64,000 nt of DNA from NCBI RefSeq assembly GCF_040448675.1, contig NZ_CP159289.1:2108001-2172000 (forward strand), read 5' to 3'. The first letter of the stretch is position 1. The number at the start of each line of letters is the position of its first letter. The stretch is from Dyadobacter sp. 676 (GTDB lineage Bacteria > Bacteroidota > Bacteroidia > Cytophagales > Spirosomataceae). The position numbers were made by a program, and so were the translations under genes. Shown here one piece after another: positions 24,109 through 57,984 of the stretch. Below the pieces are notes generated by a model. The model saw only the letters and a program-made list of their open reading frames with translations. It searched no databases and had not been told where the DNA came from.

Positions 24109-24813
24109 ATGAATTGTACAAAATGGAAGGCTTTCGGAAAAGCATCCGTTATCGCCCTGGCCTCCCTGGCCTTTTCAAACGACGCAGAAGCTCAAAAAGG
24201 AAAATGGGTTACCCTCTTCGACGGCAAAAGCCTGAATGGCTGGCATAGCTGGCAGCAGGATAAAGTGTTGCCGCAATGGAAAATCGAGGACGGCGCTGTG
24301 GTATTAACCGAAAAAGGTGGCAAAGACCTTGTTACCGACAAAGAATACGGCGATTTCGAGCTGGAACTCGAATGGAAAATCGCGGAAGGCGGTAATAGCG
24401 GGATCATTTACCATGTCGTAGAAGACAAAAAATACTGCTGCCCCTACTCGACCGGCCCGGAAATCCAGGTGCTGGACGATGTGAAGCATCCCGACGCAAA
24501 AGCAGGCAAAAACGGCAACCACAAAGCAGGCTCATTGTACGATATGCTGCCTCCAACCGACTTCTCGGCGGTAAAACCTGCCGGCGAATGGAACAAGGCG
24601 AGGATCGTCATCAAGGGTGGAAAAGGCGAAAGCTGGCTAAACGGTAAAAAAGTGGTGGAGTTCCCTACCCAGGGTGCTGAATGGAACAAACTCGTTGCCA
24701 ACAGCAAGTTCAAAACCTGGGAAGGCTTCGGTGCGGCTTCCAAAGGGAAAATCGCATTGCAAGACCACGGCGACAAGGTTTCTTACCGCAACATCCGCAT
24801 CAAGGAACTATAA
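24109..24813 (+). CDS. Exported DUF1080 (3-keto-disaccharide hydrolase-like) protein
   Basis: 234 residues with an N-terminal signal region (ASVIALASLAFSNDAEAQ). The mature part is one DUF1080 domain, a concanavalin-like beta sandwich: TLFDGKSLNGWHSW at about 37-50, then EWKIAEGGNSGIIYHV, ending KVSYRNIRIKEL. Some family members hydrolyse 3-keto-glycosides; activity here is not proven. Its stop overlaps by 6 bases the tail of the large helicase gene on the other strand. Confidence 0.88.
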   Translation: MNCTKWKAFGKASVIALASLAFSNDAEAQKGKWVTLFDGKSLNGWHSWQQDKVLPQWKIEDGAVVLTEKGGKDLVTDKEYGDFELELEWKIAEGGNSGIIYHVVEDKKYCCPYSTGPEIQVLDDVKHPDAKAGKNGNHKAGSLYDMLPPTDFSAVKPAGEWNKARIVIKGGKGESWLNGKKVVEFPTQGAEWNKLVANSKFKTWEGFGAASKGKIALQDHGDKVSYRNIRIKEL

Positions 24814-27800
24814 CAAATCGTTTTTCAGGTTTCCAGACCAATATTCCCGGCTGTAAACTCGCCTGAATGGCCAGTTTTTCAGCCGTAACAGAAGGGGCAG
24901 ATAAGCATGAGGCTCTTTGGATGATTTACTGTAATGATAAAGATCGTCATCCGTAAGTACCAAACCCTTGTAAGTCCCTTCTTCTTTTACCGTAATATCC
25001 CCGAATGGCAGCTCTTTCCGGAACGCCGGGTTCTGCCCGACCAGCCTTTCTTTCAACAGCCAATCGGAACGGAATTGGCCCGGAGTAAGTGGCCCGGGTA
25101 CAAAATTGCCTTCCGAAACCTGCAAGGCGTAATCCATATAGGCGCGCAGCAGCTTGGGGCCTTCATTCGCGGTGTTTTCCGTTTGCAGTTGAGAAGGCCA
25201 GAGGCTCGTTACAAAGTAGATTTTCTCCCGCGCCCGCGTCACGGCCACGTTCAGGCGATTCTCTCCGCCCTGCATATTCAATGTCCCGAATTGCATCGAA
25301 ATGCGCCCTTTTTCGTCGGGCGCGTAGCCCATTGAGAAAATGATCACGTCGCGCTCGTCGCCCTGTACGTTCTCGATATTCTTTACAAACAGGTTTTCCG
25401 GCACCATCACTTCTTTTTCCAATGCATCCTGAATGGCCGCCTGCTGGTAAAAGTTAAACGTTACTACCCCGATGCTCTTCCCGGTTCCGCTCAACTCGCG
25501 GATCAGTCGCAACACCTCTTTAACCTCAGCCGCATTGGTATTGTTTTTCCAGATTCCGTCCGTTTTAACGTACAGGATTCCCGGCTCCCGGTCGTTCACT
25601 TTATTGAAGTCCGGCAGCAGTTTCAGGCTTTGTTTGTAGAATTTTTTATTAGAAAAATCAATCAAATCCAGCGAAAGGCTTCTGTAATGACCTGTGAGCT
25701 GATAATGATCCAGCGATTGGCCGGCAAGGTCGAGCAACGATTCAATTTCGACGGCTACGGAATATTCTTCATCCTCCGTCCTGTCCTCGAACCGTACACG
25801 GTAAAGATCGCTCGGCGAAAGTTGCTTGCTATCGCCCGTAACGACCCATTGCTTCCCTCTGAATGCCGCCGGGAGGCTATATTCGGCGTAGCATTGCGAA
25901 GCCTCGTCAAAAATCACCAGGTCAAACAGGCCCTTTTCCATCGGAAATACCGCCGATACGGCCTCCGGCGAAGCCATCCAGCAAGGGATCAATGCAAACA
26001 CCTCATCCGCGTAGTTTTCCAACAATTTCCGGATCGGCCAGATCTTCCTTTTCTTGGTTACCTGATGCCCCAGCTCCCGGTAAGTCACGCGATTCCCCAG
26101 CCGGTTCTTTTCGACATCCTCATAAGTCGCTTCACGAAGCTTTATGTTGGTAATGTCGGCACTTAGTTTTTGCTTTAAAGTAATACTTCCCTGGATCTGA
26201 TCTTCCCATTGCTTCATTTTAAGCGACGACACCGATCGCAGTACGGGATATTTACTTTCAATATGCCCGATCCAGGCCAGCTTGACGCTATTTTCAAATA
26301 ATTCGACGACCTCCTCCGCGCTGGTCATACCAAGTTCTGCACCCTTTTCCAATGTAGCCTGCGTGGCGCCCCGCTGAGTTTCCGTCATTTCCTCCCACAA
26401 TCGGTCCATATCGGCCAGTGAATCGAAGTCATCGCGCAATGCATCGAGCAGGACAGCGCTATGTCCCGCCGGGTCGGTAACCAGCGCTGTGATTTGCTCC
26501 GGCAGAAGATAAGGCAGCATCGCCTGCTCCATGCGGTCCCATACCTGCAACCATTGTTTGAGTTGCTGAATGGTTTCCGCGAACCGGCTGATCTCTACAT
26601 TCGCAGATACCAGCTTGTGAAAAATACCTTTCCAAACACCTGCATCCATACGCGCCACGGCATCCGCCGCGCATTCCGCTGATCTGAAAAATGACAGGTA
26701 TGCCGCCGCACGGTCCTCGGAAAAGTCATCGATGAATGCCGGTTCAAACCCCAGGCTGTCATGCTGAAGCCAGGATTCCAGCTGCCTGCGATTCCTCAAA
26801 CGCTGTTCGAGCCGCATAAGATGTTCGAGCGACACCGTGAAGCCGTTGGCCGACGCCACCCGTTCTATTTCTTTCTTTTCTTTACTAAAAACATCCCAGA
26901 AGAACCCCGAAACAGCCGACCGCTTTGTTTCAAGCGACTTTTTGAGCATTAATTCGAATGCATTCAACTGCCCGGCCGGTAACGACAATTCGATGCCTCC
27001 CTCTGCTATAAAACCCTCCATGGCATCCACGGCCTGGCGCACCAATGCCAGCCGCTCGTGCGGGTTCGCAGGCGAGCCGGTGTATTTTCTGAGCAATTTC
27101 CACGAAAACGCGTCGCTTATCAGCCCCGAAATGTCGGCAAGCCGCTCGATAATTTCTTTTCGATTTTGGATATAGGCTGTGTCGAATGTCGTGCCCGTCA
27201 GACGACCTAATGCCGAAGCTTGCTTCTCAAACGCGCCCGGCCATTCGGAGAGCATATTTTCCATCGTGCGCAGCTCGGCCATTCCAAATGCAGCAAAACT
27301 CCTGCGTTTCCGCCAGGGATGCCCCGAACGGATCAGAAACGCATAATCGGAATAGGTTTTCAAATGTCTTTTGAAACTATCCCAGCTATCTATTTTAAAA
27401 TGCCGGTAGTAGGGCTGCATATCCACATGTGTAGCTTGTGGATCGCTCGTCAGATACAATTCTTTGATACTAACGCCGCATTCGTTTTCGTCAAACAATG
27501 CTGAGCGGAAGGTATCCAGCTCACTCACCGTTTTATCGATCGCACGGCTTTCGTGGGTAAATTGCCTTTCGAGAAAGACGGCATCCAGGCTGTAATTTTG
27601 CTGGCGATAAGCCTCCACTTGCTCTATCTGGGACGCTATCTGCGCATAAAGCGCCGATCTGTCGTTTTTGAAGTCGTGAATAAGCCCGGTGAAATTCTTC
27701 ATCCCTGTCGCGGCGAGCCGCTGGTAAACCACATCCAACGCGGCCCGCTTCTGGCATACCAATAAAACACGCTTGCCTTTGGAGGCGAAATCGGCGATGA

Positions 27801-28815
27801 GGTTACATATCAACTGAGATTTACCACTTCCCGGAGGTCCCTGCACGACTACCGACCGCCCGGATTTCACGGCAAGAATGATTTCCTCCTGCGACTCGTC
27901 GATAGCGAAAGGCGTAAGGATATCCTCCTCCCGGGTCTGCCGACCGTCGCGTTGCCGCGTCACTGACGGGACTTCATCATAATGCGCATCAGCACTCGCA
28001 TAATATTCCGCAAGGCCAACCAATGGAATCTGGAACCCGCTCTCTTCCGCCAGGTCAAGCAATCTGTTATAATCGGGAACGAGATAGGAGCCTGCTTGCG
28101 GAAAAATGCCCAGAACAGCCTCGGGATAAAGTTTCAGCTCGCCATTTCTTTCATTCGCAACCAGTTCGGAGCTTTTCTCCCCGCTGAATGCGACAAGCTT
28201 GTCTTCAAAAAGCTGCTGGTTAAAATTAATCCTGAACGGGGTTGTTTTCAACCATTCATACAGCTGGGTCCGGAATTCCAGGAAATCATCCGGAAAATCT
28301 TCGAACGATTTTTCGAGTATTTCATCCGAGATCGGAGATTCATTAAAATGCCCGTAGGCTAATGCAAAGCTCTGGTTTAATGCAACACCGCTATCGTCCC
28401 GCTCGAAAAGGCACCATTGCTCATGGTCCATCCGCAACGTCACCGGGAAAAAAAGCAAAGGCGCATGAATGGGCGTACCGTCGGAGAGCTTCCCTTTAAT
28501 GAAAGGGTATCCCACATAAAGATCGCGCGAGCCCCTTTCCTCTTCGATAAACCGCTCGGTACGGGAGATTTTGCGCAGCCGTCTGCTGGTTTCATTTACC
28601 TTTTCGAACCGCGGGTCGGCCACATCGCACAATGGGATACGAGCTTTTCCATGAATAACCTGTTTGAGCACCTCCACCGAAGGTTTTGACAACAGAAAAT
28701 CCGTATCGTGAAAATCCAGGAATTGTTCGGCAGACAAGTTCGTGAGTAACAGCGACTTGTTGCGGGTACTGAGATTAGTAAGTCGTTTTAGATAAGCTTT
28801 AAGAATCCGGCTCAT
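24808..28815 (-). CDS. Large superfamily 1 (UPF1/DNA2-like) helicase
   Basis: 1335-residue ATP-dependent nucleic-acid helicase-like protein. Residues 1-300 are an N-terminal DUF4011-like region. Q-motif-like DESQEE is followed by Walker A GPPGSGKS at 326-333. A long insertion (about 400-900, helical) precedes Walker B FDEASQ near 967 and motif III VTGDSKQLSPSD. Motifs V and VI are NIENVQGDERDVIIFS (about 1150) and LNVAVTRARE. The last ~130 residues are not recognised. All ATPase motifs look intact. Proteins like this occur both as housekeeping genes and near defence loci; its role here cannot be assigned. Tail-to-tail overlap with the DUF1080 gene. Confidence 0.85.
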   Translation of the reverse strand: MSRILKAYLKRLTNLSTRNKSLLLTNLSAEQFLDFHDTDFLLSKPSVEVLKQVIHGKARIPLCDVADPRFEKVNETSRRLRKISRTERFIEEERGSRDLYVGYPFIKGKLSDGTPIHAPLLFFPVTLRMDHEQWCLFERDDSGVALNQSFALAYGHFNESPISDEILEKSFEDFPDDFLEFRTQLYEWLKTTPFRINFNQQLFEDKLVAFSGEKSSELVANERNGELKLYPEAVLGIFPQAGSYLVPDYNRLLDLAEESGFQIPLVGLAEYYASADAHYDEVPSVTRQRDGRQTREEDILTPFAIDESQEEIILAVKSGRSVVVQGPPGSGKSQLICNLIADFASKGKRVLLVCQKRAALDVVYQRLAATGMKNFTGLIHDFKNDRSALYAQIASQIEQVEAYRQQNYSLDAVFLERQFTHESRAIDKTVSELDTFRSALFDENECGVSIKELYLTSDPQATHVDMQPYYRHFKIDSWDSFKRHLKTYSDYAFLIRSGHPWRKRRSFAAFGMAELRTMENMLSEWPGAFEKQASALGRLTGTTFDTAYIQNRKEIIERLADISGLISDAFSWKLLRKYTGSPANPHERLALVRQAVDAMEGFIAEGGIELSLPAGQLNAFELMLKKSLETKRSAVSGFFWDVFSKEKKEIERVASANGFTVSLEHLMRLEQRLRNRRQLESWLQHDSLGFEPAFIDDFSEDRAAAYLSFFRSAECAADAVARMDAGVWKGIFHKLVSANVEISRFAETIQQLKQWLQVWDRMEQAMLPYLLPEQITALVTDPAGHSAVLLDALRDDFDSLADMDRLWEEMTETQRGATQATLEKGAELGMTSAEEVVELFENSVKLAWIGHIESKYPVLRSVSSLKMKQWEDQIQGSITLKQKLSADITNIKLREATYEDVEKNRLGNRVTYRELGHQVTKKRKIWPIRKLLENYADEVFALIPCWMASPEAVSAVFPMEKGLFDLVIFDEASQCYAEYSLPAAFRGKQWVVTGDSKQLSPSDLYRVRFEDRTEDEEYSVAVEIESLLDLAGQSLDHYQLTGHYRSLSLDLIDFSNKKFYKQSLKLLPDFNKVNDREPGILYVKTDGIWKNNTNAAEVKEVLRLIRELSGTGKSIGVVTFNFYQQAAIQDALEKEVMVPENLFVKNIENVQGDERDVIIFSMGYAPDEKGRISMQFGTLNMQGGENRLNVAVTRAREKIYFVTSLWPSQLQTENTANEGPKLLRAYMDYALQVSEGNFVPGPLTPGQFRSDWLLKERLVGQNPAFRKELPFGDITVKEEGTYKGLVLTDDDLYHYSKSSKEPHAYLPLLLRLKNWPFRRVYSREYWSGNLKNDLL

Positions 28816-30428: not shown

Positions 30429-30514
30429 GCCGGGGTGGTGGAACTGGTAGACACGCAGGACTTAAAATCCTGTGAGCCGAAACGCTCGTACGGGTTCGAT
30501 TCCCGTCCCCGGTA
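30429..30514 (+). tRNA. tRNA-Leu (anticodon TAA)
   Basis: 86 bases with a long variable arm. Acceptor GCCGGGG pairs with CCCCGGT, discriminator A; anticodon stem CAGGA/TCCTG around loop CTTAAAA, anticodon TAA; T-arm ACGGGTTCGATTCCCGT. Everything downstream looks accessory, so its 3' end is a likely integration site. Confidence 0.96.
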
Positions 30515-30876
30515 CTAAACGGGACTTTGGCGAGAAATCGTCCGAAGTTCCGTTTTTTATTTTAGCTAAATCGCTGTTTATCTGATAGATAAACGAAGCA
30601 ACTTCGTTGACTTTTCCGGTTCGATAGCCGTTTTCTGAAAATATGAGCTTTTCAGGGAATATCGAACCAATGATTTCCCGCTTCAATTTGATATCCGCTC
30701 CGGTATAGGTCTTATCAAGCCTGAAAAGCACGGCTAGCACCTTTTCAATCATCTTTTCCAGCCCCTGAACACCTCCTGCATTGTTTGTCAACTCGGTTAA
30801 TCTTGCTTCCAATCTCAGCAGTTTGTCTTCAATCTCGGTTTTGATCGTTCTGTAATCTTTGGGATCGATATCTGAG
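30462..30876 (-). pseudogene. C-terminal remnant of a serine site-specific recombinase
   Basis: Minus-strand frame whose sequence from base 30876 downward (DIDPKDYRTIKTE, then EDKLLRLEARLTEL, then GSIFPEKLIF and NEVASFIYQIN) matches the C-terminal coiled-coil end of large serine recombinases found in Bacteroidota mobile elements. The catalytic N-terminus is missing: the frame is cut exactly at the left end of the IS21 element. The last residues (VPGTGIEPVRAF) are tRNA-Leu read antisense, so the true stop is uncertain. The position suggests it once integrated an element at tRNA-Leu. Confidence 0.6.
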
Positions 30877-31059
30877 TGGAAAATTCGGTGAAATTGACCA
30901 CCCCATTTCAGTTTAAACTGACCACCTGTTCCGGCTGAAATTGACCACCCCGTTTCGGAGCAAACTGACCACCTGTTTCGGAGGAAACTGACCACCCTGT
31001 CAAGCAGAAAAATGCTGTAGAATCACCCATATTTTTGGCGGATACCAACCGTGGAAAGT

Positions 31060-32610
31060 ATGGCTAATTCGACTATCAGCATGAATAAGATAAGACAGAT
31101 CCTAAGGATGTACAGTCAAGGGCGCAGCAAGCTTTTTATTGCTGAGCAAACGGGCGTTTCCCGCAATACGGCCAAGAAGTACATGGCTACTTTTGAAGCG
31201 AGCGGTCTGACTTTCGAGCAGATCAACGGCCTGAACGATAAAGAGCTGGACGAGTTTTTCGGTGCAGTTAGACAGATGCCGCCGCAGGATAGGCTGTTGA
31301 ACTTACAGCGCTGTTTTCCCCGGATAGATAAAGAGCTCAAAAAAACCGGCGAGACACGTTATTCGCTCTGGGAGAGCTACAAAAAGGAATTCCCTGACGG
31401 TTTTGGCTATACCCAGTTCTGCTTCCACCTGGCTCAGTGGAAGGCCCGGGTAAATCCTGTTATGCACCAGGACCATAAAGCGGGCGATAAATTCTATATC
31501 GATTTTGCCGGTGTAAAGCTGAGCTTCGTAAACAGGGAGACTGGCGAAGTAATTGAGGTTGAAGTCTTTATTGCCATCCTGGGCGCCAGCCAGCTCACCT
31601 ATGTGGAAGCGGTCATGAGCCAGCAAAAAGAAGATCTGATCCTGGCTTGTGAGAATGCTTTTCATTACATCGGTGGCGTTCCGGCAGCCGTAGTCCCGGA
31701 TAATCTCAAGGCGGCCGTCACCAAAAGCAACCGGTATGAACCTACCCTGAACGAGACTTTTGAGGACTTTGCCAACCATTACGGGACCACCATATTACCC
31801 ACCAGGGCTTACCGGCCACGCGATAAGGCGTTGGTCGAAGGGGCTGTTAAAATCGTTTACAGCCGGATCTATGCGCCTTTAAGAAAGCAGGTTTTTAACT
31901 CACTATCCGAGCTAAACGCAGCCATATGGGCGGCCCTGGAAGTCCATAATAATCAGCTCCTACGCGGTCGCAATTACAGCCGCAGGCTTCAGTTCGAAGA
32001 GATCGAGCGAGGCGCACTCTCTCCGCTGCCGCTGCTCCGCTACGAGTTCAAAAAGCAGTCACATGCGACCGTGATGAAAAACGGGCACGTGAACCTGAGC
32101 ATCGACAAGCACTATTACAGCGTCCCGTACCGGTTCATCGGCAAGAAGGTCAAATTGCTGTTCTCGGGCACGTTGGTCGAGATTTACTACCGTTATGAGC
32201 GCATAGCCCTGCATCAGCGTGTCAAAAGCCCCTACAATTACTCGACCGATAAAGAGCACCTGGCCAGCACGCACCGCTTTTTGACCGAATGGACCCCGGA
32301 TAAGTTCGTCGAATGGGCTTCTTCGATCCACGATGACGTAAGGCTTTATATCCTTAAAATACTGGACCGTAAGCAGCATCCCGAGCAGGCCTACCGCTCT
32401 TGCATCGGCATCTTGTCCTTCGCAAAAAAGGCCGGCGAACAACGGCTGATCAGCGCATGCCAGCGCGCGTTGAGCTATGGTATTTATAACTACAAAATCA
32501 TCCAGATGATATTGGAAAAGAAGATGGACCAGTACGAGGACAGCCTGTTCGCCGACGAGCTGCCGATGCCTAACCACGACAATATCAGGGGTGAAGAATA
32601 TTATCAGTAA
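31060..32610 (+). CDS. istA: IS21-family transposase IstA
   Basis: 516 residues from ATG 31060; GTG 31051 is also in frame. N-terminal HTH (QGRSKLFIAEQTGVSRNTAKKY) precedes a DDE integrase core: FYIDFAGVKLSF, VPDNLKAAV, then KALVEGAVKIVY. It catalyses cut and strand transfer of the element together with IstB. No internal damage is visible, so it may still be active. 20 bases before istB. Confidence 0.92.
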   Translation: MANSTISMNKIRQILRMYSQGRSKLFIAEQTGVSRNTAKKYMATFEASGLTFEQINGLNDKELDEFFGAVRQMPPQDRLLNLQRCFPRIDKELKKTGETRYSLWESYKKEFPDGFGYTQFCFHLAQWKARVNPVMHQDHKAGDKFYIDFAGVKLSFVNRETGEVIEVEVFIAILGASQLTYVEAVMSQQKEDLILACENAFHYIGGVPAAVVPDNLKAAVTKSNRYEPTLNETFEDFANHYGTTILPTRAYRPRDKALVEGAVKIVYSRIYAPLRKQVFNSLSELNAAIWAALEVHNNQLLRGRNYSRRLQFEEIERGALSPLPLLRYEFKKQSHATVMKNGHVNLSIDKHYYSVPYRFIGKKVKLLFSGTLVEIYYRYERIALHQRVKSPYNYSTDKEHLASTHRFLTEWTPDKFVEWASSIHDDVRLYILKILDRKQHPEQAYRSCIGILSFAKKAGEQRLISACQRALSYGIYNYKIIQMILEKKMDQYEDSLFADELPMPNHDNIRGEEYYQ

Positions 32611-32630
32611 CCTTTTAAACAATCTATACA

Positions 32631-33380
32631 ATGAACAATGACACCTTGGAGAAGCTGCGCAAGCTTAAATTTTATGGCATGTTCCATGCCTTCAAAACCA
32701 GCCTGGAAAGCGGAAAAACCAATGATTATACGGCAGATGAGCTATTAGGGTACCTTGTGGACGCCGAGTGGGACGATCGCAACAACCGCCGCGTAGAGCG
32801 GCAGATCTACCAGGCCCGGTTCCGTTATAAGGCCGTCGTCGAAAATATCCATTACCATGCCGATCGCAGTCTGGACCGTAACCAGGTCATGCGCCTGGCT
32901 GATTGCTCTTTTATCACCCGCAATGAGAACCTGCTGATCACCGGCAGCACCGGGATCGGCAAAAGCTATGTGGCAACTGCCATCGGCCATCAAGCCTGCA
33001 TCCAGGGGTACCGCGTACTTTACGCGAGTACCCCAAAACTGTTCGCCCGCTTGAAAATGGCCAAGGCTGACGGCTCTTATATCAAGGAAATCGCCAGGAT
33101 CGAACGGCAGCACCTGTTGGTGCTCGATGACTTCGGTATCCAGCCCTTCGATGCACAGAGCAGGGCCGCCCTGATGGAGATCATCGAAGACCGGCACGGA
33201 AAAGCATCGTTGATTATTACTTCGCAGTTGCCCGTCAGCAAATGGCATGAAGTGATCGGAGAAAAAACCATTGCCGACGCTATCCTGGACCGCATTGTTC
33301 ACGACGCGCACCGCATAGAACTGAGAGGGGAATCGATGAGAAGAAAGAAAAAAATAGAGCCCGAAAACAGCTACCAATAA
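32631..33380 (+). CDS. istB: IS21-family helper ATPase IstB
   Basis: 249 residues, DnaC/DnaA-like AAA+ ATPase that selects target DNA for IstA. Walker A GSTGIGKS at 105-112 and Walker B LLVLDDFG at about 161-168 are intact, as is the ITSQLPVSKWHEVIGE sensor region. It follows istA as usual for the family. Confidence 0.93.
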   Translation: MNNDTLEKLRKLKFYGMFHAFKTSLESGKTNDYTADELLGYLVDAEWDDRNNRRVERQIYQARFRYKAVVENIHYHADRSLDRNQVMRLADCSFITRNENLLITGSTGIGKSYVATAIGHQACIQGYRVLYASTPKLFARLKMAKADGSYIKEIARIERQHLLVLDDFGIQPFDAQSRAALMEIIEDRHGKASLIITSQLPVSKWHEVIGEKTIADAILDRIVHDAHRIELRGESMRRKKKIEPENSYQ

Positions 33381-33500
33381 TACGACCTTAATTAACTAAT
33401 TTTGAAACTGCTTCTGCAGCTTTTTTCTGCTACCGGCCGCCAGACAATTAGGTGGTCAATTTGCCACGGAATCAGGTGGTCAACTTCTCCGAAATACCCA

Positions 33501-34462
33501 TATAATGCGCGAATAGCTGCAATGAAGAAGGCTATTGGCGGGCTCGACGTAATGGTTGACTATTATCATGGTGGAAGTCTGGCAGCCTGGGTAAAAGAAC
33601 ATCCCTCAATTATTTTATGGGTTCGTGAACGTTCTAAGCGTCCAATTTTTGGGTGGAAATCTTATGATGACTGGACAGCAAATCTAGGAAAGGATGGACG
33701 TTATATCATTGACGACAATCACAGGATTATTGACAAACGAACAAGAAAAGGCACCGAGCTTGACATTGAAAGTGGAATTTCCGAGATCAGAGACTCTCTC
33801 GCTCAACCGGGAAATTACCTTAGACTCACCGGGCTATCGGGAGTAGGTAAAACAAGGCTTGCACAGGCGCTCTTCGATGAAAAGATTGGAGGCAAATTCT
33901 TGAATCAATCTCAGGTCATTTACACTGATATTTCATATGATCCCACGCCGAGTCCGCAAAATATTGCCGAACAACTTGTGGCCGGTAAATATCAAGCTGT
34001 GCTAGTTATCGATAATTGCTCCCCCCAACTTCATAGGGCACTTGTAGAAAAGCTAAAAGTTCAATCACATTCGGTGAGTTTACTCACCATCGAATACGAC
34101 GTCGCTGACGATCAGCCAGATGAGACAGGCGTTTTTCATCTAGAACCTTCAAGCGACCAGGTTATAAAAAAATTGGTTTTAAGGCGAGTTCCCGAAATTG
34201 GTGAGTTGGCGGCATGGAAAGTCGCCGAGTTTTCAGGTGGCAATGCACGCGTCGCACTTGCATTGGCTAAAAGTTTAACACCAGGCGAATCAATAGGCCA
34301 TCTTCAAGATAATGCCCTTTTCGACAGACTATTCAACCAGAGAAATTCTGAAAACAATGGTTTGAAGAATTCTGCCGAAGTATTGTCGCTGGTTTATTCC
34401 TACGACGTGGAGAACACTGAGGCCGAAAACTCTGAACTTGGCACCCTTAGTCTCTTAAGTTC
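33501..34462 (+). pseudogene. STAND-like P-loop NTPase, N-terminal part (both ends cut by ISs)
   Basis: In-frame fragment of about 321 residues. It runs straight out of the right end of the IS21 element with no start of its own, so the true N-terminus is lost. Walker A is GLSGVGKT (about 111-118 of the fragment), Walker B is VLVIDNC near 170, and FSGGNARVALALAKSL looks like a STAND winged-helix/arm region. It stops in the IS3 element at 34463. Removing bases 34463-35701 joins it in frame with 35702-38165, giving at least 1141 residues. I recognise the family only as large bacterial STAND-like ATPases, many of them defence-associated. Confidence 0.75.
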
Positions 34463-34511
34463 TGAAATACTCCCGGTTTGCTGGACAGCCGACGGATGAA
34501 ATTAAGTTTAA

Positions 34512-35357
34512 TTAGGATGCTTTTGCATTGATCTGGAAAAACAATTCATCGGGAATGTACCCGGTTCCTGTGTGTTTGCGTCGACGGTTGTAAAATTCCA
34601 CATATGCTTTTACTCCCCGATACAAATCCATCCCGCCATTTGGAGGATTTAAGTATATGTACTCTTGTTTGAGCGACCTCCAAAATCTTTCGATGAAAAC
34701 ATTGTCTAGGGCCCGTCCTTTTCCGTCCATAGAAATTTGTATCCCTTTCTCTAAGAGCGGCTTAATAAAACCCTGACTTGTGAATTGGCTACCCTGGTCG
34801 GTATTGAATATTTCGGGCTTTCCCTGTGTACGGATCGTATCCAAAAGCGTTTCCCGGCACCATTCCATACTCATTGTATTGGAGATACTCCATCCCACAA
34901 TTCGACGGCTGTAAACGTCAATAATGGCGAACATGTACATAAATCCTCTGAACATTGGAATATAAGATATATCGGCTTGCCAGACCTGATTGGGGCGCTC
35001 AATCTTCAACCCCTTCAGCAAATATGGATATTTGTAATCTGTTGGTTTGGATTTGCTTAGATTGCGCTTGGGATAAATTGTGCGCAAATTCATAAGTCTA
35101 TAAAGTCTTCTCACCCGCTTCACACCAACAGGATATCCCAGTCCGATCAGGTAATCACGCATGCGTTCTACGCCATAAAACGGGCACTCTAGAAACTGGC
35201 GATCAATGGCCTTCATCAATCGCTGGTTTAACAGAGACTGACCTCTCGGCCTAAAGTAATAGCTACTACGCTGTAAACCAATCAATTTGCACTGTGCCGA
35301 GACGCTTAGCTCAGGGTACTCAGGGGAAACAAGTCCGCGTTTCTCCATAACACTCAT
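34512..35357 (-). CDS. IS3-family transposase OrfB (DDE domain)
   Basis: 281 residues. HTH_21 segment, then the rve core: VWQADISYIPM (first Asp), IFNTDQGSQFTS (second Asp), NVFIERFWRSLKQEYIY (Glu). It starts with an ATGA overlap on the OrfA stop, suggesting coupled translation rather than a programmed frameshift. Intact. Confidence 0.93.
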   Translation of the reverse strand: MSVMEKRGLVSPEYPELSVSAQCKLIGLQRSSYYFRPRGQSLLNQRLMKAIDRQFLECPFYGVERMRDYLIGLGYPVGVKRVRRLYRLMNLRTIYPKRNLSKSKPTDYKYPYLLKGLKIERPNQVWQADISYIPMFRGFMYMFAIIDVYSRRIVGWSISNTMSMEWCRETLLDTIRTQGKPEIFNTDQGSQFTSQGFIKPLLEKGIQISMDGKGRALDNVFIERFWRSLKQEYIYLNPPNGGMDLYRGVKAYVEFYNRRRKHTGTGYIPDELFFQINAKAS

Positions 35358-35641
35358 TTCCCCAAGACCTTTTTTAAAAAATCGACTTGGACTTGAAGTT
35401 CACCGATTTTAGAATACAATTCCTTCTCTTTTGTGTTTTCGGATTCATTACCAGTGGTGGGTGCCTCTTTACTGAAAACTAATTCAGCCTTTTCCAGAAA
35501 CTCTCGCTTCCAGGCAGCTATCTGTGTTGGATGAATCTCGTACTTGGAGGCCAATTCCTGCACGGTCTGAACCTCTTTAATCGCTTCAATAGCCACTTTG
35601 GCTTTGAAGCTCGCACTGAATTTTCTACGTTCCTTTTTCAT
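35354..35641 (-). CDS. IS3-family transposase OrfA (HTH)
   Basis: 95 residues. N-terminal HTH_Tnp_1 domain (FSASFKAKVAIEAIKE ... ELASKYEIHPTQIAAWKREF) and a C-terminal leucine-zipper-like coiled coil (ELYSKIGELQVQVDFLKKVL). DNA-binding partner of OrfB. Confidence 0.92.
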   Translation of the reverse strand: MKKERRKFSASFKAKVAIEAIKEVQTVQELASKYEIHPTQIAAWKREFLEKAELVFSKEAPTTGNESENTKEKELYSKIGELQVQVDFLKKVLGK

Positions 35642-35701
35642 AGTCAGCTACTAAGTTAGAAATTTAAGCAGCTGTCCAGATTTCTGGGAGTATTATAGTT
35701 C

Positions 35702-38165
35702 AATACCCGCATCAGTCCTTTATCACCACACCGTCGATCTCAGAAATCGCGACCTTGTTCAGGCAAGGGGAAAATATCGAGCTGTACTTCCCCATGCGAT
35801 CGCCAATAGATTGGCAATCGCGGGCCTAGAACGACTGACAAATTTCTCCATCAATAGACATTTGCTGCTGAAGGGCAATGAACGCCTCATTCTGTCATTT
35901 ACTAGACGGCTGAGTTACATACCTGATAGCGAACAAGCTCAAAGTATTGTTGAAGATTGGCTGGCGCCCGGAAGCGGATGGATGAAAGACGTCAGCAATT
36001 TGAATGAATTTGGGATGTCAGTATTTGAAAACCTGGCAACAATTCTTCCGGAAACTGCATTATGTGCGATGGAAAGAGCAAATATCTTATTACCAGAAAA
36101 ATTTGCGAGCCGAGAAAATAGATACTTTGCGCGGTTTGTCCGCCTTTTGCGACATATTGCGTATCACGAACATCTGTTTTTGCGGAGCGCAAATCTCATT
36201 GCAGCGTTTGCGCTGACTGAGAGGGTTGGCGAGAATTATGATCCGATCCGTAGACAACTAAGCGATATGTTCCGTATAATTATGTCAGGGACGTATGCCT
36301 CCCTAGAAGTGCGTTTACAGGTCGTTAGCAGTCTCTGGGCATCTAATATTGCCAACAAACAACAGCTTGCCACCGACCTAATTGACGCTGCACTGGAAGC
36401 ATGGCACTTTCAAACTCATCACAATCCGACTTTCGGCTCGCGATCGCGGGACTATGGAGCACAATCCCGACAACCAGTCGAAATTGAAAGCTGGTTTACA
36501 CGAGTAACTGAGCTTTGTATACGAATGTTCAATGACGATACGCCCTTCAAAACTACACTAAAAAACATACTAGCGTCAAAGCTTCGGGGACTCTGGACTA
36601 AAGCTCGTCAGTTTGATTTGGTTGAATCGATTTGCGAGCAAATGACGCGCGATGCGTTCTGGCCTAACGGGTGGTTTCGAGTGAGGTCAATTCTGAAATT
36701 CGATTTAAACAAGCTGGATACTGACGTACAGCAAAGGTTAATAAGCCTAGAGAAATCTCTGAAACCACAGAATTTATATGACAAGCTAGTTGCATACTTT
36801 CTTTCAGAGGCGAAGGGCATGGATATTTCCATGGCATTGCTTGGTGATCATAGAGATAACTTCAAAGAGCTGTTAAGAAGTTATGAAAACCTGGGAAATG
36901 AGCTGGTTAGCGATCATCAAACCTGCGAGAAGATCATTTCAACGTTGCTATGCTCGAATAATGATAGCCTATTTCATCTGGGTAGAGGAATGTACGAGGG
37001 AGCGAGTGACAAAAGAAAAACTCTGGAATTTTTGCTGCGCGCATTTTCAATCCTGCCCATTGACCAGCGTAAACCAATTATATTGAAAGGATGGATTAAC
37101 TGTGTACAAAGGGAGAATGATAGATGCGCAGATGAGATATTAGAGCAAATACTTGATAATGAAGAGCTAAAAAGCCTATTTGTCCCATTACAAGCAGCAA
37201 TTCCAATCAGTAACGATGGGATAAGGTTACTTAGGAAAGCATTGGATAAGTTCGAACTACATTCAAAGGAATTTTCGTCCCTTTCTTATTCACTTTCCTA
37301 CTCGAATATATCTTCTGATGTTCTTTGCGATGTTCTTAAAAGTATCCTGGACCGCCCATATGGACGAGACGCTGCATTTGAAATTTTATATTATAAATGT
37401 CATGTCGCAAAATCCGGATCTGAAAATAATCTCACGGAAAATCTAACTGCTATTGGTAGACAACTTCTGTTGAGTTTAGATTTGGATAGAGAGCTGAAAT
37501 CTGAAGACAACTATAAAATTGGGGTGATGGTGTCCTTATGCCTTGTCGGAGAAAGCGCCTTTGGTGCTGCCAGCGAGTTCACCCTTCGACTGATGCGGTT
37601 AATAAGAGGTCGTTACATCTTTCCTGACGACCTTGACGGAATCCTGAGAGAATTAGTTAAAGTTCAGCCAATATGTTTGCTTAATTCCCTATTAGAAAAA
37701 GGTATTCCAAGCGAATATGTTAAATGGATTGATTTTCATAAGAATTTCGAGAAGTATGATGCTTATTTGTCTACTTTGCCAGACGACGTGCTTCTTAACT
37801 GGTGCGAGGAAGATCCCGTGGAACGATATACGCTCATTGCAGGCGCAATTATGAGTTATGAGGGAAGCGAGGAAACTGGTAAACTTGCATGGAAGCCGAT
37901 TTTCTGGAAATTGGTAGAGCGGGCCCCAAGTCTTACGGAACTACTAGACCAAGTTGAGGACACGCTGAGGCCGTCAGTGGTCTATGGCTCTCGCGCCAAC
38001 GCTTACCAAGCCAGGCTCGCATTGTTCACGGAACTTATCGGCACTCCGAATGCTCAGCTACGTAAATGGGCGCAATCAAGGTATAACCAATGGACTGAGG
38101 AAATAGATTCGGCCAGGAAATCTGAGCAAGAGCGTGACCGAACTCGAAATGAAAGTTTTGAGTAA
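35702..38165 (+). pseudogene. STAND-like P-loop NTPase, C-terminal part
   Basis: Continuation of the ATPase cut by the IS3 element. The frame is open from the right target duplication, reading IPASVLYHHTVDLRNRDLVQ, then VLPHAIANRLA, with the first Met only at 35811. About 820 residues, mostly alpha-helical and without transmembrane segments, resembling a long helical-repeat sensor domain (for example FENLATILPETALCAMERA and a C-terminal EWA-type repeat, LRKWAQSRYNQW). AT-richer than the chromosomal genes at the left. With the left part, the layout is P-loop NTPase plus large repeat domain, typical of STAND sensors. Confidence 0.72.
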
Positions 38166-39042: not shown

Positions 39043-39321
39043 ATGGATCAGTCAGAAGAAATGTTCAAATTAGTGAGACAATGGCGTAAAAGTGGCCTGA
39101 GCCAAAGTGAATTCTGCAAGTTGCACGGCATGACAGTAGCTAAATTTGGCTATTGGGTCGGAAAGGAAAAGTTGGTTGAAAAAGCGACGGGTTTTGTTCG
39201 TATATCCGCCCAGCGTTCGGCCATGGACAATGCTTATGAAGTCATTTATCCAAATGGCGTGCAGGTAAATTATCAGGGCGGTGATCTGACGGTGCTCTCT
39301 GAGTTGATCCGGCTTTACTAA
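39043..39321 (+). CDS. tnpA: IS66 accessory protein TnpA
   Basis: 92 residues. N-terminal HTH (MFKLVRQWRKSGLSQSEFC, then KLHGMTVAKFGYWVGKEK) typical of the small IS66 OrfA. Its stop overlaps the tnpB start. Confidence 0.85.
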   Translation: MDQSEEMFKLVRQWRKSGLSQSEFCKLHGMTVAKFGYWVGKEKLVEKATGFVRISAQRSAMDNAYEVIYPNGVQVNYQGGDLTVLSELIRLY

Positions 39322-39665
39322 TGTTTAGTCTGGGTTCATCCCACCAATATTATCTGTACCGAGGCGATTGCGATATGCGTAAAGGTTTTGATGGACTCTG
39401 TGGCCTGGTGGATTCCGAGTTAGGTAGAGTGGCCACCAGTGGCGAAGTTTTTATCTTTCTTAACCGAAGACGGACCCATCTTAAAATGCTGCATTGGGAG
39501 CCGGGAGGCTTTGTACTTTATTATAAAAGACTGGAAAGTGGCACCTTTCCCTCCCCTAAAAAACAGGCAACCGGAAGTATTTCTTGGAGCGAACTGGTGC
39601 TGATGATCGAAGGAATCCAGGTACTGAAAAGCAGTCGTAGAAAGCGTTTTATTTTACAGCAATAA
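39321..39665 (+). CDS. tnpB: IS66 Orf2-like protein TnpB
   Basis: 114 residues, full-length for the family. YRGDCDMRKGFDGLCGLV and the block RRTHLKMLHWEPGGFVLYYK are the standard IS66 Orf2 signatures. Required for transposition in studied IS66 elements, with an unclear molecular role. Confidence 0.93.
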   Translation: MFSLGSSHQYYLYRGDCDMRKGFDGLCGLVDSELGRVATSGEVFIFLNRRRTHLKMLHWEPGGFVLYYKRLESGTFPSPKKQATGSISWSELVLMIEGIQVLKSSRRKRFILQQ

Positions 39666-39709
39666 GTGCTTTTGCTAGCTTTAAAGGCTGTTTTTCCGTA
39701 CTTTTAAGT

Positions 39710-41218
39710 ATGCAAAATGCCCCGCTGGAAACGCTGGATAAAGACCAATTGCTCGCTCTTTTAAAAGAACGGGATCAGCAGATATCGGGTTTAACCCAGC
39801 AGAACGCATACCTGGAATCTCAGGTAGAGATGTACAAACGGATGCAGTTCGGTCAAAAGCGTGAACGCTTTGAAGGAGATCCGGCCCAGATTGCGCTTCC
39901 CTTTGAAGCTCCTAGCGAACAGGCTGCTGCACAAGAAGAAATTCTGCATGAAAAAATCAGCTACATCCGTAAAAGGCCAAACCATAAGGGCCGTGCAGCA
40001 CTGCCTTCTCATTTACCCGTCGAAGAGATCGAGATTTATCCTGCCGGTGATCTTTCTGAAATGGTATGTATCGGCAAGGAAGTTACTGAAGAGCTGGATT
40101 ACGAACCCGCACGCTTTTTGATCAAAAGATATATACGCTATAAATATGCACCCAAAAATGGTGAAGGGGTCAGAATCGGTCAACTTCCCGAGCGGGTCAT
40201 CGACAAAGGAATACCATCTGCGGGACTGCTGGCTAGCATTTTAACCGATAAATACCAAGACCACCTTCCACTTTACCGGCAGAAGCAGCGTTTTGCCAGG
40301 GAAAATATCCAGATCGCATCTTCAACACTTGAAGGATGGACCAAAGAAGCGCTGATCAAGCTGGAACCGCTTTATGAGCAACTGGTCTTTGATATGAAAT
40401 CGAAGGGCTATTGGCAGGTGGATGAAAGTCCGATTAAAGTACTGGAAACTGACAAGAAAGGCGCTTGCCATCAGGGATACTATTGGGTCTACCACAGCCC
40501 TTTGGATGATGTCGTTCTCTTTGATTACCAACCGACAAGAGGCTCAGCAGGAGCGAAGACGATGTTGGAAAGCTTTAAGGGCTATCTACAGACGGACGGC
40601 TACGCAGTTTATGAAAAGCATGGGAAGCGGAAAGATGTTATCCATCTTGCTTGCTGGGCGCATGCGCGTCGGGAATTTGAACGGGCCCTGGACAACGACA
40701 AAACCAGGGCGCAAAAAGCACTATCGATGATCCAGCAACTGTACGCTGTGGAGCGGAAAGCCCGCCAACTGATGCTGGATGCTGTTGAAATCAAAGAGCT
40801 GCGGCTAACAGAATCCCTTCCAGTTATCAACGAGCTGGGCAAATGGATCTTCGAACAAATTAAAAGTACGCTCCCAAAAAGCCAGATCGGAAAGGCGATG
40901 CAGTACAGTTACGGCCGTTGGGATGCACTCAGTGCCTACTTATACGACGGAAATCTGTTGATCGATAATAATCAAATTGAAAATTCTATACGCCCGTTGG
41001 CCCTGGGCCGGAAAAACTATTTATTCGCTGGCTCACACGAAGCAGCACAGCGGGCTGCTATGATCTACTCCTTCTTTGCTATCTGCAAAAAACACAACGT
41101 CAATCCCTACAATTGGCTAAAAAACACTCTACTAAACATCTCCACAATCAATCATAAAAACATCACTGACCTGTATCCGCAACACTTTAACAAGGTTCAC
41201 CAATTAACAAATACGTAG
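39710..41218 (+). CDS. tnpC: IS66-family transposase TnpC
   Basis: 502 residues. N-terminal leucine-rich coiled coil (LLALLKERDQQISGLTQQ), a zinc-finger-like region, then a DDE core: WQVDESPIKVLE, LQTDGYAVYE, and NNQIENSIRPLALGRKNYLF with the final Glu. The C-terminal IS66_C sequence (YSFFAICKKHNVNPYNWL) is present. Intact. Confidence 0.93.
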   Translation: MQNAPLETLDKDQLLALLKERDQQISGLTQQNAYLESQVEMYKRMQFGQKRERFEGDPAQIALPFEAPSEQAAAQEEILHEKISYIRKRPNHKGRAALPSHLPVEEIEIYPAGDLSEMVCIGKEVTEELDYEPARFLIKRYIRYKYAPKNGEGVRIGQLPERVIDKGIPSAGLLASILTDKYQDHLPLYRQKQRFARENIQIASSTLEGWTKEALIKLEPLYEQLVFDMKSKGYWQVDESPIKVLETDKKGACHQGYYWVYHSPLDDVVLFDYQPTRGSAGAKTMLESFKGYLQTDGYAVYEKHGKRKDVIHLACWAHARREFERALDNDKTRAQKALSMIQQLYAVERKARQLMLDAVEIKELRLTESLPVINELGKWIFEQIKSTLPKSQIGKAMQYSYGRWDALSAYLYDGNLLIDNNQIENSIRPLALGRKNYLFAGSHEAAQRAAMIYSFFAICKKHNVNPYNWLKNTLLNISTINHKNITDLYPQHFNKVHQLTNT

Positions 41219-41234: not shown

Positions 41235-43032
41235 AGAGCAGTTGCTTAAAAATCCAAGCGGTGTATTGCTGATTACTCCCGAGTCGTTGGAAGCAATGTT
41301 GGTAAACGCCCCCCACAATGCTAGGAAACTCTTTGGTGCAGTCGATTACATTGTGATTGACGAGATCCACTCGTTTTTAGGGGCCGATCGCGGAATACAG
41401 CTCAGATCGATTCTTGCTCGACTTAAACCGTTCAATACTTCCCAAGCATTGGTAGTAGGGCTTTCTGCCACCATAGGAGATTATGCGCAGGCAAAAAACA
41501 TGACTGGGGATGAGGCAAATACGAAAGTTCTGTTGGACAAGTCTGCAAAAGAAATTGATGTCAGGCTCAGGTACTATGCGTCAGATGGAGCAGAACTGCC
41601 AGTCGACCTTCTGAAAAATCTTTATTCAGAAACTAAGGATCACAAGGTCTTGATCTTTCCAAATAGCCGAAGTCGCTGTGAGGAAGTTGCAGTGAAATTG
41701 AAGAAACTTTCTGACAGGGTTAAGGGACATCCGTACTATTTCTCTCATCATTCATCAATTCATAAAGAGCTTAGGGAGTATATCGAAACGTTTGCAAAGA
41801 CGAATGTCAGATACCCGTTTGCCATTGCCTGTACATCGACATTGGAGCTTGGCATTGACATTGGATCAGTGGACATGGTTGTGCAGATTGACTCAGTTCA
41901 ATCGATTTCTTCGCTTGTGCAAAGGCTCGGACGGAGTGGGCGTCGGGAGGGCGAGAAAAGCAGACTTCTCTTTTATGCGACAAAGCCATGGTCACTATTG
42001 CAGACGTTGGCATGCCTTGACCTATTTGAGGAAGGTTATATTGAATCTTTAAGGCAAGTATCCAAGCCCTATGATATTCTGCTTCATCAGACGCTTGCCT
42101 ACGTTAAGCAGTTTTCAGAATGCAGTTTTAAAAAGCTGTGGGAAAACGTCCGGGATAATCATGCTTTCGCAGATATTAGTGAAAATGAGTTGAAACACAT
42201 TGTCGATTGGCTGTTAAAAACAAACATGTTGGAGCAAATCAATGGGCAGCTGATCATCGGCGTGGATGGTGAATATATTGTAAATTCCAAGGACTTCTAC
42301 ACAGTTTTCAAAACCGAACCGGCCTACAAAATTCTCCACAAGGAAAAGGCTATCGGAGAGATGCCATTTAGTCAGCAGTTGGCGATCGATGAGAATATTT
42401 TACTGGCGGCCAGAATCTGGAAAATTATTGATATTGACCGCAAGGCGACCAAAATTAGCGTTGTTCCAGCAAGCGATGGTAGAAAGCCGGTGTTCTCAGG
42501 GGATGCCGGTGTCGTCCATTCGAAGATTCGAGAAAGAATGCTGGAAGTCCTATTTGAAAAATCTCAACCCGGGGGTATGGATGACGAGACCTCAGAGGCA
42601 CTAAGGCAATTAAGAAAGGAGTTTTCAGGGTTTACCATAGAATGTCTGGACGATGACAGGCCGGTCCTGTATAAAGACAATGAGGTTAAGCTATACGCAT
42701 TTCAAAGTACACTTGTAAACCGGACGTTGGCCTTCTTTTTTCGGAAACTGGATTTGGACTTCTCATACGATGATTCAGACACCAGCTTCACCTTTCGGGA
42801 GCTGTCCCAAGACTTAAAAAGTATATTCCAGTTGTCTGTTGGCCTTTTCGCTAATCTCCGGGTTCATATCGCAAATGACCTATCGGCAAACCCATCTTTA
42901 ATCACATTCTCGAAGTGGGGAGAGTATTTGCCGATTAATTTTCAAGTAGAACTCTTGATTAGCAAGTACTATGATTTCGAAAACGCACTGGCGTTTCTGC
43001 AACGGGTAAACCTTGTACGAATACGACTATAA
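41235..43032 (+). pseudogene. Lhr-like DEAD/DEAH helicase, 5' truncated by IS66
   Basis: About 598 residues of a superfamily 2 helicase. The frame begins inside the IS66 right end (TEQLLKNPSGVLLITPESLEA), so motif I (Walker A) and everything before it is gone. Motif II is VIDEIHSF, motif III GLSATIG, then motifs IV-VI ending VQRLGRSGRREG; a winged-helix and Lhr-type C-terminal region follow. Lacking the P-loop it cannot be an active helicase. Lhr-like helicases act in DNA repair or, in accessory islands, in defence systems; which applies here is unknown. The first available start is TTG 41242. Confidence 0.75.
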
Positions 43033-54420: not shown

Positions 54421-54456
54421 AAGAGCTGTAAATGAATAGTTTACAGCTCTTTTTTG
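54421..54456 (+). terminator. Strong intrinsic terminator
   Basis: Perfect 12-bp stem AAGAGCTGTAAA (54421-54432) / TTTACAGCTCTT (54440-54451) with loop TGAATAG, followed by a T tract. The A/T-rich flanks may let it work in both directions. It separates the SGNH pseudogene from the phage-like element. Confidence 0.75.
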
Positions 54457-54524
54457 CTTCAAACAGTTACGTATCAGTAACAAAAATTGCACAACTTTCG
54501 AGATTAGTACCTGAGCCCCGATAC

Positions 54525-54561
54525 GGTTTACCTTTTGGTTTACCTTATGTTCTGGTAAACC
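54525..54561. repeat. GGTTTACC repeat cluster
   Basis: GGTTTACC at 54525-54532 and 54537-54544 (12-base spacing, same as the GGTAACC pairs near 43.2 kb), then the inverted form GGTAAACC at 54554-54561. The layout suggests a recombinase or excisionase arm-type binding site at the edge of the element. Confidence 0.45.
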
Positions 54562-54611
54562 TTTTTCCTTTCCGTACTTCGCCACCTTTGTTTCCAAGTC
54601 GGTCACGACTG

Positions 54612-54627
54612 GGATTTGCGCAAATCC
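54612..54627. promoter_or_regulatory. 16-bp perfect palindrome, candidate operator
   Basis: GGATTTGCGCAAATCC is perfectly self-complementary and ends 26 bases before the start of the HTH gene. Its placement suits autoregulation by a dimeric regulator (inference). Confidence 0.45.
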
Positions 54628-54653
54628 ATTTTGTCACTTTAAACAAGTTGAAG

Positions 54654-54935
54654 ATGGGAAATCACATTGGACATCCGGCGGAGAATCTTCTATCTCTTCC
54701 ATACTGGGCAAAAAAGGTTTTGACCTTTGACGAGGCAGCCGAATACACGGGTCTTTCAAAATCATACCTATATAAACTTACGGCAAAGGGCGAAGTCCCT
54801 CACTTTAAGCCTCGGGCGAAGATGATCTACTTCAATCGCGAAGAATTGGAAACCTGGCTACTACAAGGCAAGGTTAAAAGCGCCGAAGAAATTGAGGCTA
54901 TCGCAGCCAGCAAAATACTTGCAAGAAAAAAATAA
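54654..54935 (+). CDS. Excisionase/AlpA-like HTH DNA-binding protein
   Basis: 93 residues from ATG 54654; the frame is open upstream to 54432 but that part reads through the repeats and terminator. MerR-like winged HTH: LTFDEAAEYTGLSKSYLYKL, then GEVPHFKPRAKMIYFNREEL, the HTH_17 pattern used by excisionases and by AlpA activators of satellites. First gene of the replication/packaging module, and a likely switch for excision or transcription. Confidence 0.8.
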   Translation: MGNHIGHPAENLLSLPYWAKKVLTFDEAAEYTGLSKSYLYKLTAKGEVPHFKPRAKMIYFNREELETWLLQGKVKSAEEIEAIAASKILARKK

Positions 54936-54951
54936 CCCCCGATAACAAATT

Positions 54952-55497
54952 ATGTCTGAGCCACATAACGTATCGGAGGCAAAGCACAAAGATACATCAC
55001 GCACTATTTACTCACAAACGAATTGGCTGGCAGATTTCAACCGCCGATGGATGGCCGAGCAAGCCGCCAAGTACCCAAACGTTCCATCCTACGCGCTTTC
55101 TGGAAAGAAGCACAAGGACAATACCGCCAATGCCTTGCAAAAGGCGATCATAGCTTGCCTTCAATTTGAGGGCCACCAAGCCGAACGTATATCCATTGAG
55201 GGCCGCGTTATCGACACACGCCAACGTGTTACTGATGGCATCGGACGCACCCGGACCATCGGTAGTGTTACACGGATCAAATCGAGCGCACAGAAGGGAA
55301 GCGCAGATGTGTCTGCTACGGTTTTCGGTCGCTCTGTAAAAATTGAGGTAAAGATCGGCGCCGATCGACAGAGCCAGGCGCAGAAGGATTACCAGCGAAG
55401 CATCGAATCGGCCGGCGGGGTTTACCTGATTGCCGACAGTTTCCAAACATTCTACGAGTGGTATCTGCAATTCCGGAAGGAGGTGGGCAATGAATAA
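54952..55497 (+). CDS. PD-(D/E)XK (VRR-NUC-like) nuclease
   Basis: 181 residues. The C-terminal half has the nuclease core: GSADVSATVFG (Asp, about 117-127), KIEVKIG (E-x-K, about 130-136), then QAQKDYQRSIESAGGVYLIA, where the Gln and Tyr follow the VRR-NUC pattern. Such enzymes in phages process recombination or replication intermediates. Overlaps the next gene start by 8 bases, so translationally coupled. Confidence 0.65.
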   Translation: MSEPHNVSEAKHKDTSRTIYSQTNWLADFNRRWMAEQAAKYPNVPSYALSGKKHKDNTANALQKAIIACLQFEGHQAERISIEGRVIDTRQRVTDGIGRTRTIGSVTRIKSSAQKGSADVSATVFGRSVKIEVKIGADRQSQAQKDYQRSIESAGGVYLIADSFQTFYEWYLQFRKEVGNE

Positions 55498-56471
55498 CGG
55501 AAATTCAATATTGGAAGCCATTCTTTCCGAACAAAAAGAACTGACCCAGCCAGCGCTTTCTGGAATGCTTCGTGTTCGATCCGCCAACCAGGTATTGAAA
55601 GAGTCGTCTGAAACGCCGGATCCCAAACAATACTATCCGCACATGATTGTCGAGGGTGAGATTACAATCTTGTTTGCCGACACGGGAATTGGGAAGTCGG
55701 TTATAGCGGTCCAGATTGGAGATTACATAGCTCGACAAGGAGTCCCTCTGCTGTATGTTGATTTGGAGCTATCTGACAAGCAATTTGAGAAGAGGTATCG
55801 AGACGATGGCGGAAGGTTGTACAGATTCCCTGACTGCTTTTATCGGGCCGACTTCACGCCAAGTTTTGAATACCCAAAAGGTGTTTCGTACGAAGATTAC
55901 TTCATAAAGTCCCTGCGAGAGGCGATCACGGCATGTGGGGCGAAAGTGGTGATCATTGATAACATGACGAAGCTATCCGCGGCGGATACCGACACGGCTA
56001 AGGCCACAATCCCGATAATGAATGAGGTTACGAAATTGAAACACGAAGGGCTCACTTTCTTGGCAATTGAGCATAACAAAAAAAGTTGACCCAACTAAGC
56101 CGATCAGTTCAAATGACCTTCAGGGCTCAAAATTCAAGTCCAATTTTGCGGACGCCGTTTTTACGATCGGCAGGAGTCATTCCGATAAAAATCTCAGGTA
56201 CGTGAAGCAGCTTAAAGTAAGGACTGCTGAAATGGTCTACGACACCGAAAATGTTAGAACATTTGATCTGAGAAAGGATGGCGGATTTCTACAGTTCGTC
56301 CCAATTGGCTACGGTAGCGAATACCAGTTCTTGAAACTTGATTCTGAGTCAATAAAAAAGGAGCGAAGGCAGCAGGCTATGGAAATGAAGGCTTCTGGAA
56401 AATCAAACGTAGATATCGCAAAAGAGCTGGGCGTTTCGGAAGGAGCTGTACGAAAGTGGCTAAAATCGTAA
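55490..56471 (+). pseudogene. RecA-like/RepA-type AAA ATPase with C-terminal HTH, split by one frameshift
   Basis: First frame from ATG 55490: Walker A ADTGIGKS (about 63-70), Walker B KVVIIDNMTKLS (about 150), ending AIEHNKKS at 56089. Second frame: VDPTKPISSNDLQGSKFKSN through to a C-terminal HTH (SNVDIAKELGVSEGAVRKWL). The switch is a run of seven A (56078-56084); six would give AIEHNKKVDPTKPIS and one protein of about 326 residues. The fold is that of hexameric replicative helicase-type ATPases (AAA_25/RepA), here probably the replication ATPase of the element. Otherwise undamaged. Confidence 0.7.
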
Positions 56472-56655
56472 AAATCGTACTAATCGTAAAAATCGTACTT
56501 CTCGAACGATTCGGAGCCAATAATGCATAAAAAATGTACGAAAGTTCGATTTAAGAGACCTAAACTGCATAACAAGCTATCTTCCAGGAAAATATAAATT
56601 AGTTGTCTTAACAACTATCATATTTCGTACTCGTACCACTCGTACTAATGTACGA
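56465..56655. repeat. Iteron-like TCGTA repeats, candidate origin or operator
   Basis: ATCGTA occurs at 56465, 56474, 56483 and 56492, an exact 9-base period, the first overlapping the ATPase stop codon. A second cluster has TCGTAC at 56625, 56631 and 56640 and the inverted GTACGA at 56650. Between them lie further TCGAACGA-like pieces. The region is AT-rich and sits between the ATPase and the primase-like gene, a usual place for a replication origin. Confidence 0.5.
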
Positions 56656-57983: not shown

Positions 57984-57984
57984 C

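Follow-up and report, generated by a model that had tools for sequence, protein, structure and literature searches.

A very probably dead PD-Lambda-4_A-type defence gene in a tRNA-Leu island of Dyadobacter sp. 676, and the putative sensor architecture of its intact relatives

A stretch of 64,000 nucleotides from Dyadobacter sp. 676, termed the window below (positions 2,108,001 to 2,172,000 of contig NZ_CP159289.1), carries the remains of an anti-phage gene in an island that begins at a tRNA-Leu gene. The gene is a copy of PD-Lambda-4_A that is very probably dead: its front was lost at one mobile element, and the remainder was split by another. Taken as a whole, the evidence makes it probable that this is a dead PD-Lambda-4_A copy in a tRNA-Leu island, and that the intact relatives are self-contained, NLR-like anti-phage sensors with an effector domain at the front and a C-terminal FE tip that would serve as a docking peptide. 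The gene itself is ordinary and its family has already been named; the unexpected feature is the FE tip. The PD-lambda-4 system appears as a P-loop NTPase system in the table of a review (PMC10952713), which credits it to Vassallo et al. 2022, while the name PD-lambda-4 was not found in the searched text of the original study (PMC9519451). The PADLOC model for PD-Lambda-4 is PDLC03991.

On the forward strand of the window, the open frames 33402-34499 and 35811-38165 share one reading frame, in agreement with an earlier reading made from the sequence only, which had described two halves in one frame around an IS3 element. Piece one (33501-34462, + strand) corresponds to about residues 127-446 of the intact relative P0003 and encodes a linker and the NTPase core. 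Piece two (35702-38165, + strand) corresponds to about residues 447-1267 and encodes the end of the NTPase region and the helical repeats, closing with the C-terminal tip NESFE (38148-38162, +) and the stop codon (38163-38165, +). The Walker A motif GLSGVGKT (33831-33854, +) is intact, as had been claimed, and is invariant in the 58 rows of alignment A3. Further on lies the strand VLVIDNC (33999-34019, +), which we take to be Walker B-like; its N and C are invariant in A3 and its D is present in at least 90% of rows.

Both pieces match the PADLOC PD-Lambda-4_A model of 1283 amino acids, piece one with 327 bits over profile positions 133-449 and piece two (from 35811) with 338 bits over positions 501-1283. 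The intact P0003 scores 850 bits over positions 3-1283 of 1283, and its PADLOC matches at E up to 1 are to PD-Lambda-4_A models only. Pfam matches are weak and below cut-offs, and for the most part AAA-type. Since both pieces match one defence model and relatives cross the junction, the shared frame is not due to chance. By these profile matches, the split gene is a member of the already named PD-Lambda-4_A family.

P0003 (1267 aa, JGI source) shares 96% identity with piece one and 95% with piece two, and runs unbroken through the junction (alignment A1). The nearest uninterrupted relatives are about 95-97% identical to the pieces, and the nearest named ones come from Dyadobacter. In the species collection, 550 pattern matches were obtained, of which 339 encode a relative, and the best 80 of these were kept. 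The gene is a single ORF of 1056-1346 aa in 78 of the best 80 loci, and the two others end inside the match; L112 and L114, where contig ends leave the gene incomplete, were left out. Homologues spanning the junction, on which the sequence-only reading depended, are thus found both in P0003 and in 78 of the best 80 loci (of 339). The alternative of two separate genes is rejected, because the relatives form one ORF across the junction.

The element that separates the two pieces belongs to the IS3 family and occupies 34463-35697 (- strand; 1235 bases), with imperfect terminal repeats and two IS3-type ORFs, the larger of which matches NF033516 at 235 bits (cut-off 160). It is flanked by the target duplication GTTC, with the left copy at 34459-34462 and the right copy at 35698-35701, so that transposase, terminal inverted repeats and short duplication are all present. 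The genome holds nine full copies including that of the window, five of which tie for the top score. The sequence-only reading had seen a 5-base repeat, AGTTC. These letters do stand on both sides, but the base to the right of its IS3 boundary is A in all nine copies; the element is therefore drawn one base longer, with the A assigned to it, and the duplication is read as the 4-base GTTC. So drawn, the copies show a 3-4-base duplication in eight of nine cases, with none visible in L030 when the flanks are read by eye. The removal of 1239 bases proposed earlier still holds, as 1235 bases of element and one 4-base duplication make up that number. By arithmetic alone, subtracting it from the span 33501-38162 returns the at least 1141 codons that had been given.

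The front of the gene ends at an IS21-family element (30877-33500, + strand; left end to within one base), which encodes a transposase (31051-32610) and a second ORF (32631-33380) that by its position would be the helper ATPase. Three other full copies in the genome have duplications of 5-7 bases, and the copy in the window has none. To its left lies what remains of a large serine recombinase, named as such from the sequence of its relative: a C-terminal tail (30516-30876, - strand), which reads towards the tRNA-Leu gene; its ORF extends to 30462 and its front is missing at the IS21. In a related genome, G018, the end of an ORF of 538 aa matches the tail at 97% identity; this ORF has a resolvase-type start (by-eye reading) and overlaps a tRNA-Leu whose anticodon differs. 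In the plasmid search, the tail had no match. The tRNA-Leu (taa) of the window (30429-30515, +) marks the left island edge. To the right of the IS21, the split gene begins at P0003 residue 127, and the first 126 residues are absent at the locus. As judged from the aligned relatives, at least the recombinase front and a gene front of 126 codons are gone at this joint.

An 88-base direct repeat, 97.7% identical, connects window positions 30493-30580 with G000:C1:2188017-2188104, about 49.5 kb to the right. It comprises the end of the tRNA-Leu and the adjoining end of the recombinase, which suggests that the far edge of the island lies near G000:C1:2188017.

How the front was lost can be judged from the two flanks together. 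If the IS21 had entered by simple insertion, no DNA would have been lost and the gene front would be located elsewhere. The element is indeed complete and has the same ends as the other copies. Against this, the window copy has no target duplication, the recombinase tail on its left has a 97% identical relative that is an ORF of 538 aa, and no second match to the N-terminal domain was found in the single-contig genome (7.28 Mb, completeness 95.3), in a search run without a positive control whose sister search found N-termini in the relatives. Simple insertion is accordingly considered highly improbable. The missing duplication and the recombinase tail on the other flank make deletion or rearrangement at the IS21 the likely course. 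The earlier statement that the IS21 cuts off the N-terminus therefore stands in that the front is absent there, but a deletion or rearrangement, with a decapitated recombinase on the other side, replaces the plain cut. Loss of the gene is also likely to be recent, as had been proposed: sister copies of both the IS3 and the IS21 elsewhere in the genome are identical at a rounded 100%, neither piece contains a stop, and changes at conserved columns are similar on both sides (4 vs 3; the count left out eight aligned residues at the start of piece one, which derive from the IS21 end). The same lack of stops and of excess changes at conserved columns might be read to mean that the remaining pieces are still useful, with a piece or a nuclease-free protein expressed as a regulator or decoy; the relative P0004 of Dyadobacter chenhuakuii is likewise recorded without about its first 133 residues. 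However, if both insertions are recent, the absence of decay says little, the IS3 separates the NTPase core from the remainder, and P0004 may have a wrong start or be another broken copy. Retained usefulness is thus very unlikely, and a dead copy remains the preferred reading. Nor is the suggested revival by precise IS3 excision supported: with the N-terminal 126 residues missing from the locus and no match to them found elsewhere in the genome, the protein would still lack its effector even if the IS3 were cleanly removed. IS3-type elements are also not known for frequent precise excision.

Other genes surround this locus. A SngC/BrxHI-like helicase gene (41242-43032, +) without about 117 N-terminal residues starts directly behind an IS66 element (ORFs 39043-41218); together with the split gene, this makes at least two broken defence-type genes on the island. 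Outside the island edge, a DUF4011/SF1 helicase of 1335 aa (24808-28815, -) is one open frame, and it is related to defence proteins of the PDC-S37, ProA and Hhe kinds, with scores under the NCBIfam cut-offs. A run of ORFs at 54432-62397 has the look of a prophage by eye.

The intact relatives show the architecture that is broken in the window copy. In a fold search, the modelled core resembles STAND/NLR NTPases, and both Walker A and Walker B are present in an AAA-like core, which agrees with the earlier description of a STAND-like NTPase. Alignments to Apaf-1 and NLRC4 extend to model residue 500, a span that may include a winged-helix domain after the NTPase. The core is followed by a long helical region: the P0004 model is almost all-helical beyond residue 345, with two short strands near 1034-1045, so that the long helical C-terminal part noted before is borne out. 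In Foldseek, 6mfv ranked at the top and HEAT-repeat proteins came next, and a further fold search of the P0004 model covered residues 50-388 only. In the model, the C-terminal part is a helical array, and a sensing role for it is plausible. The earlier label of a sensor ATPase in a defence-type system is right in kind, and the gene belongs to a defence family in PADLOC.

The front of the intact relatives has features of a nuclease. Residues D52, G54, D56, Q79 and K81, all within the first 126 residues, are the same in every one of the 50 aligned rows. In the model, D56 directly precedes the predicted strand 57-60, and Q79 and K81 lie inside the predicted strand 75-81; the D...QxK pattern of the PD-(D/E)XK motif thus falls on the expected strands, in intact relatives only. 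No Pfam nuclease family matches this domain with support and no solved structure recognises it by sequence, and for this reason the domain is described here as a putative PD-(D/E)XK-like nuclease, its activity presumed from the motif. The fold-search list is filled by NTPase matches, and N-terminal residues 1-158 are barely covered in it. A remnant of 66 residues with a TAA at G035:C12:1187791-1187988 (L010, L019) is 86% identical to P0003 residues 46-111; by this alignment, it is a fossil of the N-terminal domain that is missing from the window copy.

In plasmids of Enterobacter roggenkampii and Lelliottia, an alpha/beta-hydrolase (DUF676, Abhydrolase_6) replaces the nuclease-like front on the same body. 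A search from the Lelliottia protein listed 105 further proteins (P0124-P0228). Their length is for the most part about 1350-1390 aa, and most of those with a named source come from gammaproteobacteria; nuclease-type proteins rank below. Of these, 104 were examined, with P0227 left out by length, and GxSxG is present in 77 of the 104 proteins ranked with the Lelliottia protein, not in all. Judged by motif and domain matches, there are two effector types, nuclease-like or alpha/beta-hydrolase, on one body, the hydrolase occurring in a gammaproteobacterial branch.

The opposite end of the protein is nearly invariant. FE or FEW closes 77 of 78 genome proteins (from the best 80 of 339), the exception being L097, which stops one base before a contig end; the same loci contain 533 other ORFs with a length of 150 aa or more, and none of them ends in this way. 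When the 78 proteins are aligned with P0003, F1266 and E1267 are present in all 78 rows with letters there, although these proteins form 17 single-linkage clusters at 50% identity and are thus not 78 independent cases. Over the 250 residues preceding the tip, the commonest residue averages 0.40-0.45 per block, and the stretch of 32 residues that leads up to the final five is rich in E and R (33% vs 15% in whole proteins). FE or FEW also ends 118 of 120 proteins among the matches listed for the split gene (not P0092 or P0115). In the set ranked with the Lelliottia protein, FE lies within the last four residues in 98 of 104, and a W frequently closes the chain. The distant relative L018 has a different end. 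In the P0004 model, DSSP assigns helix up to residue 1134 while the last seven residues (1129-1135) have pLDDT below 50, so that the drawn helix and the low confidence of the model disagree. That so little variation is seen in a tip which the monomer model renders poorly suggests a docking role, either in cis or from one subunit to another. We tentatively propose, as a possibility that is still the less favoured one, that the tip [R/S/T/K]FE(W) on its charged helix is a conserved docking peptide of the whole NLR-like family, kept despite effector exchange. It might form a built-in latch that holds the sensor off or joins subunits on firing, in which case the switch could be a phage or host protein that releases the tip or binds to it.

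The family is patchily distributed. Among related genomes, 8 of 98 others carry a relative, one of these as a remnant only. Plasmid relatives occur in 42 records, 18 of which cover at least 80% of the query. No phage-borne relative was found among 50,697 records with P0020 as query, DNA searches of E. coli with two queries found none with either, and no credible relative by sequence was found among solved structures. The suffix _A presumably implies one or more further components beside gene A. In a comparison of eight stretches, a protein of 233-246 aa of no known family, with a hydrophobic front by eye, directly precedes the intact gene in three (L012 10743-11483, L013 11486-12187 and L016 11217-11918), and a convergent NTP-transferase/HEPN protein lies downstream in three (L012 6002-6868, L015 6675-7601 and L016 6437-7381; Pfam for L012 and L016). 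As conserved partners, both were rejected, since neither recurs as a group around the gene in the 78 wider loci. The neighbours in these loci (from the best 80 of 339) contain no wide group, and 50 of them searched against PADLOC share no family common to two. The upstream protein has no match in the Dyadobacter sp. 676 genome, in a search run without a positive control.

Together, these features are consistent with the following course of action in intact relatives. The helical repeats would recognise something made during infection, the NTPase would exchange nucleotide, and the protein would oligomerise. The oligomer would gather the N-terminal PD-(D/E)XK-type nuclease domains, or the alpha/beta-hydrolase domains in the other branch, and the gathered effectors would cut DNA or otherwise stop infection. 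The FE tip, as a docking peptide, would hold the resting state or join subunits. The NTPase class is also shared with regulators, and two Dyadobacter relatives (P0011 and P0015) are named 'Restriction endonuclease' by their source; the intact relatives might accordingly be STAND-type regulators or modification-dependent restriction enzymes instead of infection sensors. The match to a defence model, the different effector on the same body, the patchy occurrence with plasmid relatives, and matches of individual neighbours to restriction and other defence models in PADLOC all argue against this, and we regard it as unlikely. An NLR-like infection sensor remains the preferred reading.

This locus offers a clear example of defence-gene loss at insertion sequences, with the island recombinase broken at the same IS21 joint. 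The family combines two effector types on one body, occurrence in many phyla, no fixed partner gene and a nearly invariant tip. The features of the tip and of the effector give concrete mutants for asking how PD-Lambda-4-type proteins are held off or triggered.

As compared through its PADLOC model, PD-Lambda-4 (PDLC03991) shares with the intact relatives a whole-length match and a P-loop NTPase, whereas the Dyadobacter copy is broken and no partner gene is seen. Avs (AVAST) proteins consist of a nuclease or other effector, a STAND NTPase and a repeat sensor. This order of parts is also that of the PD-Lambda-4_A relatives. PADLOC includes Avs models, and none of them was listed for P0003 with E up to 1. 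In NLR-like sensors it is typical that effectors are exchanged while the body of NTPase and sensor stays constant. The STAND/NLR proteins Apaf-1, CED-4, NLRC4 and 6mfv have in common with the PD-Lambda-4_A relatives the fold of the NTPase core and a helical, sensor-like part, at 10-13% identity in their alignment rows, and they differ at the N-terminus, where the PD-Lambda-4_A relatives have a PD-(D/E)XK-type or hydrolase domain instead.
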